Source: a virus. Taken from it: a DNA stretch of 43,158 nt. The stretch lies in IMG/VR virus record IMGVR_UViG_3300045940_000009, positions 1 through 43,158 of that record. One strand, written 5' to 3'. A program made the position numbers and the translations under genes. Under the pieces are notes generated by a model. It searched no databases and was not told the DNA's origin. It saw only the letters and a list, made by a program, of their open reading frames with translations. Positions 4,873-21,575 of the stretch are shown here, in pieces. The stretch's first letter is position 1. Every line of letters starts with the position of its first letter.

Positions 4873-5109
4873 TCAGATGCCGAGCCGCCGCGACAGCGTG
4901 ACCGAGCGCGGCCGACGCGCCGCCGTCGCCGTGCGCAGATAGCTGGAGATCGCGCGGCGGATCACGACCTGCACGCGGACGCGATCGGCACGCGCGATCG
5001 CGTCGAGCCGATCGAAGTCGCCAGGCGTCAGGTTCAGGCACAACTGCGCCGAAGGCGCGCCGGACTCGTCGAGCGCCGGACGGCCGCGCGGACGCTTCGG
5101 CATCGTCAT
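4873..5109 (-). CDS. Ribbon-helix-helix DNA-binding protein
   Basis: A 78-residue basic protein starting at an ATG that overlaps the stop of the upstream methyltransferase (ATGA at 5106-5109); a second ATG two codons later is also possible. After a basic arm (MPKRPRGRPALDE) it shows a short beta strand (AQLCLNLTP) and two helices (DFDRLDAIARADRVRVQVVIRRAISSYLR), the layout of an Arc/MetJ-type ribbon-helix-helix domain, which binds DNA as a dimer. It may regulate the late genes, but no operator was identified. The C-terminal 20 residues are basic and probably disordered. Confidence 0.72.
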   Translation of the reverse strand: MTMPKRPRGRPALDESGAPSAQLCLNLTPGDFDRLDAIARADRVRVQVVIRRAISSYLRTATAARRPRSVTLSRRLGI

Positions 5110-5984
5110 GTCAGTTCGGCGTCGGCGTGGATCACTCGTCGTCCGAGCCATTCGGCGATCTGCGGCACGAGCGCGTTGCCGAGCGCGCGCAGTCTGTCCA
5201 CGCGATTGGGAATCCCATGAGCCATTCGGACAGGGCCGGGGAAAGGTGCCCACGTGTCGCTGCCGAATAGGGGTCCATAGTCGAGCGCACGTTCGACTCT
5301 TCGCCGAGTGCAGGGCAGTCGCACTCGTAAGCGTGCAGCGGCCAATGGATCACACACAGGTAATCCTCGCAGCACGAGCACGGAATCCAATCCGGCAGAT
5401 TCTCCGCGAACTCGTCCAGTTGTCCCGTCCGCTGGCCGTAGCGGTGACTGCCTTTGAAGTCGTTCGCGCCGGGGGTAGGCAACCAGCCACACGCGCTCTC
5501 GTCTATGTGGGGCACCAACGACCCATGCAGGTATGCAATCCCATTCCGCGTCATACCCGCACTCGGCCAAGTCTCCGAGAACCGTTCCGAAGCTCCGTCC
5601 AGCGTCATTTGACAGTAACCCTGTGACGTTTTCAGCCAGCACCCAGCGGGGTCGTATGTCGCGAATGATTCGTGCGAACTCGGGCCAGAGATCGCGTGCG
5701 TCGTCAGATCCGCCGCGTCGGCCAGCGACGGAGTGCGGCTGGCAGGGAAAGCCTCCGCAAATAATGTCCACTGGTGCGAGACAGTCGGCGCAGGCGGCGC
5801 CGTCGTGCGCGGCTTGTCCGTGCGTCGTTCGGACATCGGCGTATCTCCTGACGTCGGGCCAGTGCTTCGCGAGCACGCGCCGACAATACGGATCGATCTC
5901 GACTTGCCAGACGATCTCGCAGCCTGCGCGTTCCAGGCCGAGATCGAAGCCGCCGATTCCGGCGAACAAGCTGCCGACTTTCAT
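5106..5984 (-). CDS. C5-cytosine DNA methyltransferase (Dcm family)
   Basis: A 292-residue enzyme that transfers a methyl group from S-adenosylmethionine to cytosine C5, likely protecting phage DNA from restriction. Motif I is FAGIGGFDLGLERAG at the N-terminus. Motif IV is GGFPCQPHSVAG with catalytic Cys81, motif VI is ENV (118-120), motif VIII is APHRRERVWLVA, and motifs IX/X are NRVDRLRALGNALVPQIAEWL. The target-recognition region (about 165-250) is short and arginine-rich, unlike a usual recognition domain. That stretch is also read in another frame by a nested gene. Starts and stops overlap both neighbours by ATGA. Activity is likely because all catalytic motifs are present; the target site is unknown. 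Confidence 0.92.
   Translation of the reverse strand: MKVGSLFAGIGGFDLGLERAGCEIVWQVEIDPYCRRVLAKHWPDVRRYADVRTTHGQAAHDGAACADCLAPVDIICGGFPCQPHSVAGRRGGSDDARDLWPEFARIIRDIRPRWVLAENVTGLLSNDAGRSFGTVLGDLAECGYDAEWDCIPAWVVGAPHRRERVWLVAYPRRERLQRQSPLRPADGTTGRVRGESAGLDSVLVLRGLPVCDPLAAARLRVRLPCTRRRVERALDYGPLFGSDTWAPFPGPVRMAHGIPNRVDRLRALGNALVPQIAEWLGRRVIHADAELT
5132..5836 (-). CDS. Gene nested within the Dcm-type methyltransferase, same strand, different frame
   Basis: A 234-residue open frame lying wholly inside the methyltransferase gene. It has its own ATG with a strong AGGAG 8 nt upstream. The protein does not look like a shadow: composition is balanced, and it contains stretches I recognise from phage proteins found next to Dcm genes, namely GCWLKTSQGYCQMTLDG, FSETWPSAGMTRNGIAYLHG, GWLPTPGANDFKGS and, near the C-terminus, LSEWLMGFPIAWTD. 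A cysteine cluster (PCSCCEDYLC... ECDCP) could bind a metal. Because the family keeps company with cytosine methyltransferases, a role in target recognition or as a partner subunit is possible, but that is inference. Overlap with a conserved enzyme over 705 nt is very unusual. Confidence 0.7.
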   Translation of the reverse strand: MSERRTDKPRTTAPPAPTVSHQWTLFAEAFPASRTPSLADAADLTTHAISGPSSHESFATYDPAGCWLKTSQGYCQMTLDGASERFSETWPSAGMTRNGIAYLHGSLVPHIDESACGWLPTPGANDFKGSHRYGQRTGQLDEFAENLPDWIPCSCCEDYLCVIHWPLHAYECDCPALGEESNVRSTMDPYSAATRGHLSPALSEWLMGFPIAWTDCARSATRSCRRSPNGSDDE

Positions 5985-7968: not shown

Positions 7969-8491
7969 GACTGCGGCCGTTCAGCGTCGGGCCTTTCGGC
8001 GCCGCGCCGCGTGTCGGCAGATCGAACTCGGCGAAGGCGTCGCCAGGTTCCTGCTCGGCCGCCGCCGCGACGCGCGTGCGCGCCGCAGGCGTCAGGCCGA
8101 GCGCGTCCCACAGGCGCGCGCAGTGCAAGAGCGACTTGTGCGCGATCTGCATGTAGGGATTGGGAATCGGGTTGTCGCTCTTCGCCGAGCGCAGCACGCG
8201 CCGCGTCGGCGGCGACTGCGCGAGCGCGTCCTGATAGACGGACCACTGCTGACAGGCGGCGAGCAGCACATTGCGATCGGCCTGCGTGACGACGCGCGCT
8301 TCGCGCAGCAGCGGCGCCAGGCGCGTCCATTCCGCCGCCGCGACAGCGTCGCTGGCGAGTTCCGGCGGCACGGCGTCGAAGCTGTCGTCGGCGGCGGCGA
8401 TCTGCGGCTCGTCGGCGTTATACGGACGTCGGCCAGGATTGCCGCGCAGCTTGCGCAGCGCTGTCGGCGTCGGCGCCGGACCGCGCTTCAT
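7943..8491 (-). CDS. Terminase small subunit, P27 family
   Basis: A 182-residue protein that recognises the packaging site and delivers DNA to the large subunit. The N-terminus MKRGPAPTPTALRKLRGNPG is the hallmark of P27-type small terminases. It is followed by PPELASDAVAAAEWTRLAPLL, VVTQADRNVLLAACQQWSVYQDAL and NPYMQIAHKSLLHCARLWDALGLTPAARTRV, all family features. The ATG overlaps the stop of the upstream methyltransferase (ATGA), which fixes the start. The C-terminus overlaps the large subunit start. Confidence 0.95.
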   Translation of the reverse strand: MKRGPAPTPTALRKLRGNPGRRPYNADEPQIAAADDSFDAVPPELASDAVAAAEWTRLAPLLREARVVTQADRNVLLAACQQWSVYQDALAQSPPTRRVLRSAKSDNPIPNPYMQIAHKSLLHCARLWDALGLTPAARTRVAAAAEQEPGDAFAEFDLPTRGAAPKGPTLNGRSHASTSKPN

Positions 8492-9693
8492 GCTGACGCC
8501 TGCTCGGCGCGCAGCAGCACGCCGTCGCGAATCGCGCGTGCAATCGCCGCCATCATGGGCGGCGGCACGGCGCGGCCGAGCCGCTCCCACTGCTGGCCGT
8601 AACTGCCGGTCAAGACGAAGTCGTCCGGAAAGCCGCAGATCCGCTTGACTTCCGCAATCGTCAGGCGGCGCCGTTCGACGCCCAGCGTAATTTCGTTATG
8701 CGTGAAGCGACGGCCGAGCGTCAGCACAGTCGGCGCAGGCGTGTCGAGCGATCGCCGATCGTGCTTCGTCTGGACCCATTCGACGACGCCGCTGCTGGCG
8801 CCGCTGGCGAATTGATAGTCGCTGTGTCCGCCTGTGCCGCTCATCTTCGCGCGCACAGTCGGCGCCGGACGATCGATCGCATGCAGCCGCGCGGCTTCGC
8901 GCGCGTTGCTCGTGACGATCGCATCGACGGCGCGCGTCGCCACGATCGGCGGCGACGGTCCGGCCGCGTCAAGCCAGCGATCGTGGATCACGCCGTCCTG
9001 CACGGCGTTGAGTTCCGGCAGCGCGTCGCGCACGCTGTAGCGATACGGCAGCGGCGTCGGAAAGACCGGCGCGCGTGCCAGGTCCCGGCGGACGCCGACG
9101 AAGATCAGCCGCTTGCGCACTTGCGGCACGCCGAGCCATTGCGCGTCGAGCAGCCGCGCTTCGACGTTGTAACCGAGCGCGACGAAGTGCGCGAGCAGCC
9201 GCTTGAACATCCCCTTCGCCACGCCTTGCACGAGTCCGGCGACGTTCTCGGCGACGAAGACGCGCGGCTGCAGTTCGTGCACAAGCCGCGCATACTCGAA
9301 GAAGAGATCGTCCACGCGCTGCTTCGTGTCCGAGTAGGTCTTGACGGCGCCCCATTGCGCCTCAAGCTGTCCGGCTGTCGAGAAGCTCGCGCACGGCGGC
9401 GAGCCGTCGAGCACGTCGAGCTTGCCGACTGGAATGCCCGTCGCGGCGACAATGCTGCTGCCGCGCACGGCGCGCACGTCGCGCGGATCGATCGTCGTCG
9501 TCGGCCAGTTCGCGCGGTAGCTGTCGCGTGCCGCCGACACGAACTCATTGGCCCAGACGACGTCGAAGCCTGCCATCCGATAGCCGAGCGACGATCCGCC
9601 GCAGCCGCTGAACGTGGACGCCACCGTCAAGCCGCAGCGCGGCAGCGTCGCGATCTCGGCCATGCTCGGCAGGCAATACGGCGGCTTGATCAC
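8488..9693 (-). CDS. C5-cytosine DNA methyltransferase, second copy, different subfamily
   Basis: A 401-residue methyltransferase unlike the shorter one at 5.1-6.0 kb. Motif I is ASTFSGCGGSSLGYRMAGF, motif IV is DGSPPCASFSTAG with catalytic Cys101, motif VI is AENVAG (148-153), motif VIII is LGVPQVRKRLIFVGVRR, and a full target-recognition region (about 210-345) follows. The C-terminal motifs are RLTIAEVKRICGFPDDF and GRAVPPPMMAAIARAI. The GTG start overlaps the ParB-like stop (GTGA); an ATG ten codons later is an alternative. Lying next to terminase and a ParB-like gene, it probably modifies phage DNA before packaging or counters host restriction. The target site cannot be inferred. Confidence 0.93.
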   Translation of the reverse strand: MIKPPYCLPSMAEIATLPRCGLTVASTFSGCGGSSLGYRMAGFDVVWANEFVSAARDSYRANWPTTTIDPRDVRAVRGSSIVAATGIPVGKLDVLDGSPPCASFSTAGQLEAQWGAVKTYSDTKQRVDDLFFEYARLVHELQPRVFVAENVAGLVQGVAKGMFKRLLAHFVALGYNVEARLLDAQWLGVPQVRKRLIFVGVRRDLARAPVFPTPLPYRYSVRDALPELNAVQDGVIHDRWLDAAGPSPPIVATRAVDAIVTSNAREAARLHAIDRPAPTVRAKMSGTGGHSDYQFASGASSGVVEWVQTKHDRRSLDTPAPTVLTLGRRFTHNEITLGVERRRLTIAEVKRICGFPDDFVLTGSYGQQWERLGRAVPPPMMAAIARAIRDGVLLRAEQASA

Positions 9694-16011: not shown

Positions 16012-16328
16012 GCGTCGTCTTCTCCGGTTTGCCGCTGCCGGACGTCGCGATCATCGCGAACGGCTGGCGGCGGCGTGATCGTGGGCTGTGCCTTCGGCGC
16101 GTCGAGTGACGGCGGCGGCTCGGCGGCGATAAGTTCAGCAGGCGGCTGCTCGCCGAGAATCCGATCGGCGCAGACGGCGCAGCGCAAGGCGCCGCTGATC
16201 AGACGCCGCAACGGCACGCCGGGCGGCACCATGTCGCCGCAGCTACCGCAGCGCGCCACCGGCCGGATCTCGCCGGACTTCGTCGGCCGTCCAGGCGCCG
16301 CATACCAGCCAGCACGCAGCGGCGTCAT
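16008..16328 (-). CDS. Zinc-ribbon protein of the early operon
   Basis: A 106-residue protein. RCGSCGDMVPPGVPLRRL and ALRCAVCADRIL give two CxxC pairs 22 residues apart, a zinc ribbon. The C-terminal 45 residues are proline-rich and charged, likely disordered. The ATG overlaps the stop of the replication initiator gene. Function unknown; proximity to the initiator suggests a nucleic-acid-related role. Confidence 0.65.
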   Translation of the reverse strand: MTPLRAGWYAAPGRPTKSGEIRPVARCGSCGDMVPPGVPLRRLISGALRCAVCADRILGEQPPAELIAAEPPPSLDAPKAQPTITPPPAVRDDRDVRQRQTGEDDA

Positions 16329-17059
16329 GCGCGCGCCGCCTTCCGGTGATGCCGTGCGCTGTCGAGCGCCTTGCCGATCGTCGCGCCGTCGTAGGCAATG
16401 TGAAGCTCGGCGCAGCGCTCCTTGACGGCGGCGCGTAGCTCTGGCTCAGGCAGTTGCGTGTCGGCGAACTCTGTCGCGACGAGCTTCGCAATCACGGCGA
16501 CGTTGTCGTCAGGCTCGCGCGGGTTGGGGTCATGCGCCCGAAAGGGCGCGTATTTATCTTTGTTCTGTTCTCTTCCCTTAACGTTCAGTTCCGCGCGCGC
16601 GCGCGAGCCGGGAAGTGCGTCGTCTGCCGCCGGTTGCCGCGCAGTGCCGTCGTCTGCCGCATCTTGCCGCGACGTGCCGGTGTGTGCCGTGCGCGGCGGC
16701 GGCGCGCTGAACTTCGACGCCGTCTCGCGCTGCTTCAGGCCAGGCTGATGTTGTTTGAAGTCAACGATTTGCATCGCACGTTTCCCGAGCGCCGGATCGA
16801 GATAGCGCGTGATCAAGCCGACGTCGTCGAGCGCGTCGAGCGCCGCGTCGAAGTCGGCCAGTGCGCGCGGCGACGTCGGATCGACTTGATGCTTGACGGT
16901 GAAGGCGTCGCCGTCGAAGCGGCCGAGATCGTCGGCGTGCACGACCAGGAGCGGATAGAGCGCTTGCGCGAACTCAGCCAGATCGGGCGCGCGCGTATGC
17001 AGCGCCGCGCGCTTCTCTGACGTGCTGAGCGACTTGGACAGCAGCCGCGCGCGCGCCAT
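16325..17059 (-). CDS. Replication initiator-like protein (replisome organiser type)
   Basis: A 244-residue protein beginning MARARLLSKSLSTSEKRAAL. The first 120 residues (LAEFAQALYPLLVVHADDLGRFDGDAFTVKHQV, FDAALDALDDVGLITRYL, QIVDFKQHQ) match the winged-helix N-terminal domain found in phage replication initiators of the DnaD/replisome-organiser type. Residues 120-170 are low complexity with a duplicated ten-residue unit ending QDAADD/QPAADD, and the C-terminal region is helical. GAAGG lies 7 nt before the ATG. An iteron-like array, an AT-rich tract and a hairpin lie inside the gene, as the lambda origin lies inside gene O, which supports the initiator call. Confidence 0.75.
   Translation of the reverse strand: MARARLLSKSLSTSEKRAALHTRAPDLAEFAQALYPLLVVHADDLGRFDGDAFTVKHQVDPTSPRALADFDAALDALDDVGLITRYLDPALGKRAMQIVDFKQHQPGLKQRETASKFSAPPPRTAHTGTSRQDAADDGTARQPAADDALPGSRARAELNVKGREQNKDKYAPFRAHDPNPREPDDNVAVIAKLVATEFADTQLPEPELRAAVKERCAELHIAYDGATIGKALDSARHHRKAARA
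16535..16690. other. Candidate replication origin inside the initiator gene: 10-bp iterons, AT-rich tract, hairpin
   Basis: Seven copies of TGCCG followed by C, T or G occur at exactly 10-bp spacing, beginning at 16625, 16635, 16645, 16655, 16665, 16675 and 16685, all on one face of the helix. Next to them lie an alternating CG tract (about 16591-16606), an AT-rich stretch unusual for this genome (16551-16592) and a perfect hairpin GCGCCC-gaaa-GGGCGC (16535-16550). Iterons plus a melting region within the initiator gene is the lambda-type origin plan. The repeats are direct observation; origin function is inference. Confidence 0.62.
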
Positions 17060-19010: not shown

Positions 19011-19660
19011 AGCCACCCCCTGCGCGCGCACGCGACGGTCAGCGCGGCCAAGAAGATCGTCTCGTCGCTGCGCTTCGTCAGCGGGATCAAGCGATACGTC
19101 GCGTCGTCGAGCAGGTTCAAGCACCAGCGGCGACAGCGGCGCCGGACGTGCGGCGGCAGCATCTGCACATAGCCGCTGACTTGCCAGCCGACGAACGCTG
19201 GCGCGCTGCCCGTCTTCACGTCGATCACGTCGATCGCGTCGTCCACGCTCGCAAGCGCGGCGATCGACGGCGGCGTCGGCAGATGGCCGCGCAGATCGAG
19301 CGTGCCCGCACAGCCGAGCGCCGGATCGGCGAGCCGCTCTTCGACGGCGTCGATCCGGATCTGACTCTCGGCCAGGAAGTTGATATAGGCGTTGACGTAT
19401 GGCGCGATCTCGTGCGCCATCGCGTCGTCGCGGCCGAGATCGACATAGCCGCGCTCGTGCCACAGTTCGATCGCCGCGTGCACGAGCGTGCCGCGCCGCC
19501 GCGCGTCGTCCGTGAACTGCGTCCGATCGACGAGTCCAGCTTCGCCGAGCGCTTGCGTCACGCTGATCAGATCGCGGCCGTCGATCGAGTAGCGATGCCG
19601 TCCGACGTCGAGCACGAGTCCCGGCGGCGTGAACGTCGGCAGATCGACGCTCGACGTCAT
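19007..19660 (-). CDS. PD-(D/E)XK exonuclease of the RecB/Cas4-like type
   Basis: A 217-residue nuclease that probably resects double-stranded DNA ends for the Bet-type annealing protein encoded three genes upstream. Motifs of the family are present: RRRGTLVHAAIELW (His61), GTLDLRG with Asp122, and DVIDVKTGSA with Asp147 and Lys149, followed by a helical VGWQVSGYVQML segment with the conserved glutamine and tyrosine. The ATG overlaps the ParB-like stop. Length is typical of compact phage exonucleases. Confidence 0.85.
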   Translation of the reverse strand: MTSSVDLPTFTPPGLVLDVGRHRYSIDGRDLISVTQALGEAGLVDRTQFTDDARRRGTLVHAAIELWHERGYVDLGRDDAMAHEIAPYVNAYINFLAESQIRIDAVEERLADPALGCAGTLDLRGHLPTPPSIAALASVDDAIDVIDVKTGSAPAFVGWQVSGYVQMLPPHVRRRCRRWCLNLLDDATYRLIPLTKRSDETIFLAALTVACARRGWL

Positions 19661-20502
19661 GACGCCGCCGTCGTCGCGCACTCGTCGGCTTCTTTCCACC
19701 AGGACGGCAGACGCTGGCCAGTGTGCCGCACGCCTTTGTTGTAGATGTCGCAGATCGTCGCGGCGACACACTGCACCTTCGCCGCGCCCGTGCGCTCGCG
19801 CTGCGTCTCGGCGCGCTGAATCACGCCGCGCGCGCCGCGCGGCAGTTGCGCCAGTTGCTGGATCAAGTGCTTCTCGTGCGTCTTGCCGTTGAAGCGATTG
19901 AAAACCATCCCGACGCCGCGAATCAGATAGGCGTCGAACGCCTGCGGATCTCCGCCGTAAGCGTCGCGCAGCGTGCGGATCGTCTGGCCGAGCACGGTTG
20001 ATCCGGCCGCGTCGTAGACGGCGCCGATCGCGCTGACGGCGCCGACGCAGTTCGGATCTTTGGCCTGACTGACCTTCAGGCCGTTTGCTTCGACGATCCG
20101 GCGGATGTCACATTCCCGGCCGTGCTCGGCCGTGCACGCGACATGGAACTTCTCGAATGTCGAGATCGCGCGGCGATCGTCGCGGCCGAGAAAGATGTCG
20201 GCGGCTTGCGCGTCCGTCAATCCTTCGTAGACTTCGGCATCGATCACGCCAGGATCGGTGCCGTGGAACCAGAGCTTCAGCGCGGCAATGCGATGCTGCC
20301 CGTCGAGAATCCAATAGACGCCGTTGCGGAAGTTGACGATCGGAATCCCGAGCTTGTCGGGATCGAAGTGCGCTGCGTATTCTTCGGCCTGCGCGCGATT
20401 GAACTTGCGCTGAGTCACGAGCACAGGCGGCACGCGCATTTCGGCCACCGGCACCGGCCGCACCTTTGACGTGCGGCTTGTCTTCTTCGGTTTGCTGCTC
20501 AT
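19657..20502 (-). CDS. ParB-like nuclease-domain protein (DGQHR type)
   Basis: A 281-residue protein. An N-terminal basic tail is followed by VTQRKFNRAQAEEYAAHFDPDKLGIPIVNFRNGVYWILDGQHRIAAL, the ParB/Spo0J N-terminal domain with the DGQHR motif at 67-71. The remaining 180 residues are a helical domain resembling the phage ParB-like/DUF6551-type proteins. AGGAG precedes the ATG, and the ATG has the ACCCC context shared by several genes of this phage. Probably a CTP- or DNA-binding protein; a partition role is not supported because no ParA partner is present. Confidence 0.82.
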   Translation of the reverse strand: MSSKPKKTSRTSKVRPVPVAEMRVPPVLVTQRKFNRAQAEEYAAHFDPDKLGIPIVNFRNGVYWILDGQHRIAALKLWFHGTDPGVIDAEVYEGLTDAQAADIFLGRDDRRAISTFEKFHVACTAEHGRECDIRRIVEANGLKVSQAKDPNCVGAVSAIGAVYDAAGSTVLGQTIRTLRDAYGGDPQAFDAYLIRGVGMVFNRFNGKTHEKHLIQQLAQLPRGARGVIQRAETQRERTGAAKVQCVAATICDIYNKGVRHTGQRLPSWWKEADECATTAAS

Positions 20503-21575
20503 GGGGTGTGCTCCTGCAGTTGACGAATGAAGCGCGCCAGGTCCCGGCGCGCGCGTTGAAGAGACTTAATCCACGGCGGGAGCTTCGCCGCAGACAGCGT
20601 GCGGAAGTCGATCAGGTTCGTGTCGGCACACAAGTGCTCGGCCTGTTCGACCATCGATTCGACGATCCGCGTCGAGTCCAGCCGCCGCGCATGATGCATG
20701 ACGGCGTCGGCGCGCACGACAATGCCAAGCTGCCGCAGGCGCACCCGACAGCCGTTCAGGCTGACACCGAGCGCGGCGGCGATCTGCTGCGACGTGTGTC
20801 CGTCGTCGGCGAGCTTGCGCATGCGCGCGATGCGCGCTTCGACGGCCGCGCGTGACCTGAACGGCAGCGGATCGGACGACGACGGCGGCGGCACGCGCTC
20901 ACCAGGAGACAAGCCGATCGCGCGCCGCACGGCCGTCGCTTCCGCATGTCCCAGATGCAATTCACGGCAGACGTCTTCACGGCTCGCGCCTTCGGCGAAG
21001 CGCTCAGCCGCGCGGCGCCGCTTCTCGGCTTGCGCTTCCGGCGACGCTGAATAGCGCTTGCCGTCGCGGCCGATCAGCACCGGGGGTGCCGCCGGATGGC
21101 CTGTCGAGTCCACCCGGCCGCGTATGTCGCGCCGCACACTATCGACGTAGCTCTTCGCGCAGCCGACTTGATCAGCGATCGCGCGTCCGCTGACGTCGGG
21201 CCACGCCGTGATCGCCAGCATGACGGCGCGCCGCACGTCCGCGTCGGTCAGGCGATAGCCGTGCTGCCGCTGCGCGCCGAGTCCATACCAGAGCGCATCA
21301 CGCTCTGAGCCGACGCGCACGTCGGCGCGGATCGTCGTCTCGCCAAGCTGCCGCGCCGCGTGCACGCGATGCCAGCCGTCCGCCAGGCGATACGTCAGGC
21401 CGTCGCGGTAGACGACGATCGGCGGGAAGGCGTCGCCTGCCGCCATGCGTTCCGCATAGACCGTGACGACGCCGGAATCGATCGACGCGCGGACGTGCGC
21501 ACGCGGATCGAGCGCGAGCACGTCGAGCCGGATCGGCGTGTCGGCCTGCACGGCGATCGCTGGCGCGCCTGTCAT
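20499..21575 (-). CDS. ParB-like protein with three helix-turn-helix units
   Basis: A 358-residue protein. Residues 15-110 form a ParB domain with LADGWHRVHAA (DGWHR at 66-70). Three helix-turn-helix segments follow: SGRAIADQVGCAKSYVDSVRR (about 129-150), ASREDVCRELHLGHAEATAVRRAIG (197-221) and HTSQQIAAALGVSLNGCRVRLRQLG (260-284), linked by basic stretches. The C-terminal 70 residues are helical. Start and stop overlap neighbours by ATGA. Likely a sequence-specific DNA-binding regulator or genome organiser; the binding site is unknown. Confidence 0.82.
   Translation of the reverse strand: MTGAPAIAVQADTPIRLDVLALDPRAHVRASIDSGVVTVYAERMAAGDAFPPIVVYRDGLTYRLADGWHRVHAARQLGETTIRADVRVGSERDALWYGLGAQRQHGYRLTDADVRRAVMLAITAWPDVSGRAIADQVGCAKSYVDSVRRDIRGRVDSTGHPAAPPVLIGRDGKRYSASPEAQAEKRRRAAERFAEGASREDVCRELHLGHAEATAVRRAIGLSPGERVPPPSSSDPLPFRSRAAVEARIARMRKLADDGHTSQQIAAALGVSLNGCRVRLRQLGIVVRADAVMHHARRLDSTRIVESMVEQAEHLCADTNLIDFRTLSAAKLPPWIKSLQRARRDLARFIRQLQEHTP

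Follow-up and report, generated by a model that had tools for sequence, protein, structure and literature searches.

A one-turn repeat array followed by a short-repeat tract within a phage initiator gene as a probable replication origin

Analysis of the 43,158 bp of IMG/VR virus record IMGVR_UViG_3300045940_000009 (positions 1 to 43,158, hereafter the window) drew attention to a segment in the linker-coding part of a replication initiator gene (16534–16689), which is very probably the replication origin of this phage, consisting of iterons and an unwinding tract and bound by the initiator that the same gene encodes. This reading is based on the layout of the DNA, on the recurrence of this layout among relatives, and on selection acting at the DNA level. 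With regard to its gene content (integrase, RecT, repressor, terminase, portal, capsid, and tail genes), the window belongs to a temperate tailed phage, and no DNA similarity to known phages was found. In the direction of the gene, a winged-helix domain is followed by seven CGGCA boxes, an alternating CG run, an AT-rich purine tract, and a hairpin, as listed below:

16325–17059, minus strand: replication initiator gene (244 amino acids, ATG at 17059), assigned by PHROG profiles and identity to IMG/VR relatives
16706–17059, minus strand: predicted N-terminal winged-helix DNA-binding domain (residues 1–118; AlphaFold2, Foldseek)
16625–16689, plus strand: array of seven TGCCG(C/T/G) boxes, one every 10 bp, which read CGGCA on the gene strand and are the proposed iterons
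16592–16605, no strand assigned: alternating (CG)7 run, located between array and tract
16551–16592, minus strand: AT-rich tract in 5-bp units, purine-rich on the gene strand (GGAACTGAACGTTAAGGGAAGAGAACAGAACAAAGATAAATA), the proposed unwinding element
16534–16549, no strand assigned: perfect 6-bp hairpin GCGCCC-GAAA-GGGCGC (loop GAAA), located 3' of the tract when read along the gene

The initial annotation, made from the sequence alone, had reported TGCCG at 16625, 16635, 16645, 16655, 16665, 16675, and 16685, and all seven positions proved to be exact. When any 5-mer at spacings of 7–40 bp was considered across the window, this was the sole run of more than four, and the longest run did not exceed four in 60 Markov-3 replicas of the window or in 2000 synonymous shuffles of the gene. 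Since the boxes occupy all three codon phases, codons do not account for the array, in agreement with the earlier argument that codon structure is not the source of the 10-bp period. The spacers between the seven boxes differ from one another and are not mutual copies, no significant additional copies of the box pair were detected outside the array, and a search against Rfam gave zero matches. Screening the whole collection for four TGCCG at 10-bp spacing resulted largely in unrelated tandem repeats; it also yielded a further initiator of this family (L180) with a CGGCA array within the gene.

The AT-rich tract and the alternating CG run were likewise present where they had been described. The tract, one of three such AT-rich spots in the window, has a GC content of 36% compared to about 66% in its surroundings and contains 79% purines on the gene strand, while 3.5% of the synonymous shuffles scored higher for a period of 5. 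The hairpin is indeed a perfect stem-loop, but the coordinates first assigned to it (16535–16550) were shifted by one base. Hairpins following the tract were modestly enriched in relatives (z 3.2), and several lineages (L160, L058/L059, L063/L064) displayed alternating CG runs at the same place between array and tract, where a role as Z-DNA or as a spacer is possible.

That the gene carrying the array encodes a replication initiator was borne out by matches to PHROG profiles 16167, 1408, 5810, and 2149 (replication initiation protein; E-values of 1e-8 to 5e-6), which place its N-terminal domain (N-domain) in the PHROG replication initiation protein group (1408, 16167, 2149, 12556, 5810). A set of relatives from isolated phages, IMG/VR, and bacterial genomes comprised 165 genes, 40 of which were left after removal of near-duplicates (75% N-domain identity); phrog_1408 was matched by 39 of these 40 non-redundant members. 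The group is without a Pfam family, as a comparison of the 40 members with curated Pfam replication families gave no match. The N-domain of the window showed 55–64% identity to IMG/VR relatives, and its AlphaFold2 model is of the winged-helix type (predicted local distance difference test 91, predicted template modeling score 0.84). Foldseek matched it to viral replisome organizers (E-value of about 1e-6) and to p19 of Myxococcus phage Mx8 (2e-5). Against solved structures there was no significant match, with Fur-, MarR-, and RepA_N-type winged helices at E-values of 0.05–0.2.

Comparison with the relatives revealed that the spacing is retained and the boxes are not. The first relative (L003, N-domain identity of 55%) carries TTCCCGG boxes in 10-bp steps at the same place, followed by AAGAGAACAGAAGAGAAGAGAACTGAAGGGAAGGGAACAGAACA, and Moorella phage MCACPph1 has TGCC boxes in 10-bp steps followed by a CCTTCT tract. 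Overall, the box sequence varies by group (TTCCSGGAA, TGCSGC, CACGGTGA, GATATCA, ACGCGT, GATCACCGAAC, TACNGTA), but despite these different sequences the boxes are spaced by 10 or 11 bp, and the order of array then tract is common to most of the 40 relatives. After masking of simple tandem tracts, 5-mer matches at a lag of 10 amounted to 185, while shuffles with every protein sequence left intact gave 32 ± 7.5 (z 20). Lags 20 (z 13), 40 (z 9), and 11 (z 6.6) also exceeded these shuffles; lags 9, 12, and 15, at which an effect of codon structure would be expected, were at the null level, and control regions of the same loci (the N-domain coding part and flanking DNA) displayed nothing at 10 bp. 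When scored by a Bayesian column method, 20 of the 40 loci had a best period of 10 and 7 had one of 11 (27/40 together), compared to 10 or 11 in 37 of 200 protein-preserving shuffles at a similar cut-off, a rate which in our opinion is partly due to the peptide still bearing the imprint of the array. Loss of the 10-bp phasing from initiators that keep the protein repeat had been named as the outcome that would speak against an origin; the opposite was seen, as the 10- or 11-bp phasing of the DNA is kept while both box sequence and linker peptide change. The p19 gene of phage Mx8 contains a short 10-bp array (GCCGTGGACG, TCCACGGACG, TCCGTGGACG) with a GGAGAT tract about 40 bp on. Between the winged helix and this array, p19 (L234:4249–5430) harbors an extra domain, by eye a GIY-YIG/T5orf172-type insert (WVYFVRAESGGPVKIG...), after which both array and tract are kept.

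For the 28 loci with a called array, we searched for the best 5- to 7-bp repeat within 110 bp after the array. Such a tract went beyond protein-preserving shuffles in 24 of them, with a mean score of 18.5 after the array compared to 4.7 for stretches before it. The unit measured 5 bp in 18 loci, 6 bp in 7, and 7 bp in 3; the gap between array and tract had a median of 6.5 bp, and tracts occurred in all three codon frames. Across loci, the tract is mostly purine-rich on the gene strand. Phages from gut and rumen display AATCC(G), and in the Moorella phage the gene strand is the pyrimidine strand. The DnaD recognition element TnnT was not enriched overall in the tracts.

Evidence for selection on the DNA itself came from three groups of relatives (67 Tyrion-like genes, 19 from Paenibacillus, and 15 from rumen and faecal samples), the close relatives of the window being too few for this comparison. 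In all three, the synonymous difference per pair was 0.18–0.21 in array and tract compared to 0.41–0.60 in the N-domain, a two- to threefold reduction, while the amino-acid difference in array and tract was above that of the N-domain. Conserved synonymous sites together with a more variable peptide favour a DNA function of array and tract, and the comparison of spacing with protein sequence proposed in the initial annotation thus came out in favour of the DNA. Furthermore, 12 of 27 distinct noncoding leaders, in prophages of Paenibacillus, Lihuaxuella, and other Bacilli, were found to carry two TTCCSGGAA boxes at a distance of exactly 10 bp, about 40–60 bp upstream of the start codon. Since these pairs are noncoding, coding constraints do not explain them; the simplest reading is that they serve as a self-operator. 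No such pair is present in the window. Second pairs of the own box type, at the period of the array, were observed in the N-domain coding part of L023 (gene nucleotide 54), L158 (191), and L074 (136), and are possibly extra operator sites.

Taking the segment as an origin, the N-terminal winged-helix domain would bind each CGGCA box, and since neighbouring boxes share their orientation and are separated by one helical turn, the protomers would align on a single helix face in a head-to-tail manner. Crowding on the array might then strain the adjacent AT-rich tract until it melts, and the 5- to 7-nucleotide units of the tract may be bound in single-stranded form by the initiator or a helicase loader. 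The replicative helicase would be recruited by the C-terminal part of the initiator or by a loader of phage or host, a step suggested by the relatives, in which genes for DnaC-like helicase loaders or helicases are located directly downstream of the initiator. As the two leader boxes suggest, the initiator may also regulate its own gene in some relatives.

Several results weigh against the interpretation as an origin. GC skew, recommended earlier as a check, gave no support, as it was weak over the window and had no turning point at the array. A helicase or loader gene was not recognised in the window itself, a recognisable array is missing in some relatives (L163, L164, L018), and the tract is weak or missing in a few (L008, L158). 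Box sequence and recognition segment of the protein also gave a partial correlation of about 0: on visual inspection, the box seemed to covary convincingly with the segment that follows the wing ('HQ...'), but this was rejected on the basis of a partial Mantel coefficient of about 0 (p 0.52).

Other explanations of the array have to be weighed against these data. If it were an operator only, at which the initiator or a repressor controls transcription, the origin would lie elsewhere. The operator-like pair of same-kind boxes in the leaders of the Bacilli relatives fits this explanation, but a long array deep within a gene, followed by an AT-rich or purine-rich repeat tract as in lambda and phage L, does not, nor was a sigma-70-type promoter-like sequence found at the array, so that we regard a purely regulatory role as improbable. 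Still less credit can be given to a periodicity arising from a low-complexity protein linker or from replication slippage with no DNA function. Linker peptides are indeed of low complexity, and slippage does generate tandem repeats; yet a step of 10 bp is not divisible by 3 and the boxes occur in every codon phase, the signal is lost in protein-preserving shuffles, synonymous sites are conserved in array and tract, boxes also occur in noncoding leaders, and the inter-box spacers of the window are not copies of one another.

That the array serves in partition (as a parS-like site) or in packaging (as pac), with ParB-like proteins or the terminase recognising it, seems equally far-fetched. Although two ParB-like genes are located nearby (19657–21575), array and initiator gene stay together in phages whose neighbouring genes differ, the adjoining tract suits an origin, and the terminase gene is about 9 kb distant.

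With respect to known origins, the initial annotation had called the layout lambda-O-like. This holds for the arrangement, as in phage lambda and Stx phages ori-lambda is also located within the initiator gene (gene O) and displays the same succession of elements, with repeated binding sites first and then an AT-rich tract whose gene strand is biased towards purines; in the window, the repeated sites lie within the 17059–16325 gene and adjoin the tract of 36% GC (16551–16592), which recurs in relatives and has a putative unwinding role. It does not hold for membership in the lambda O family. The iterons of ori-lambda are 18-bp inverted repeats in 20- to 24-bp steps, whereas the window family has short direct boxes at 10 or 11 bp (best period of 10 in the window), and lambda O was not reported against the family profile at E-values up to 100, the two initiators having no detectable sequence relation. 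Applied to lambda, the same pipeline recovered the known 20- to 24-bp iterons followed by AAAAGAAAAAAGAAAAGA, and applied to Salmonella phage L, it recovered 11-bp repeats followed by the AT-rich tract of the predicted origin. Phage L is the nearest precedent for one-turn iterons, since the repeats in its gene 18 had already been proposed as an origin, as a prediction from which no general rule was drawn (PMC8022706). As in the window, the repeats of its putative origin, here six imprecise copies of 11 bp (TGTCCAACGGA), lie within the initiator gene and precede an AT-rich tract that has a hairpin, but both the repeat and the initiator are different (2.9 bits for the phage L initiator against the family profile). 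When the openly accessible literature was searched for a one-turn iteron rule, phage L was the only case that we found.

The RepA_N initiators of plasmids and satellites (pSK41, pTZ2162, PLE) also possess an N-domain of the winged-helix type, which binds iterons with repeats of 8–9 bp. Their fold resemblance to the window initiator is weak and not significant (4pt7 and 4pql among the Foldseek rows, E-values of 0.1–0.2), and there were zero RepA_N Pfam matches in the 40 members, which places the family outside RepA_N. Chromosomal origins with DnaA boxes and DnaA-trios resemble the window in having double-strand boxes beside a short-repeat tract, which in the chromosomal case is read single-stranded, but differ in initiator and motifs.

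Beyond the phage L precedent, and as far as the openly accessible literature shows, our analysis adds that the layout is general, that the box changes while its spacing is fixed, that a tract follows by rule, that leaders carry boxes, and that synonymous sites are conserved. We tentatively propose that this large initiator family might follow a general origin code, in which the one-turn spacing and the order of array and 5- to 7-nucleotide tract are fixed and a one-sided filament of initiator protomers extends onto the melted tract. The box would be exchanged together with its reader, because the site and the DNA-binding domain are encoded adjacently and would move as one cassette; this wider proposal we hold to be possible rather than probable. 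In practical terms, a one-turn array with a tract offers a sequence-only rule to locate origins in many uncharacterised phages and prophages. It would also explain the odd low-complexity linkers of these initiators (KRREEKRREE, QSESESK, EKEKEK), which look like by-products of DNA retained for another purpose. The comparative set, with its independent variation of box sequence, spacing, and tract, further allows direct tests of DNA opening by winged-helix initiators.

Similar repeats were also observed outside the initiator family. At about 13052–13086 of L223, a phage gene of another kind, which by eye resembles DUF6291, contains many TCGGCAAA repeats in 10-bp steps, a hint that the layout is shared by further replication genes of phages, and TGCCGAATCT/TGCCGGACTT boxes at 10 bp were found at the start of a short gene (L195:7280–7335, L218:1428–1483). 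In the window itself, the two adjacent genes at 19657–21575 match ParB-like profiles (phrog_1033) and have RecT and an exonuclease as neighbours within one early region, and two DNA methyltransferase genes are encoded on the minus strand (5106–5984 and 8488–9693).
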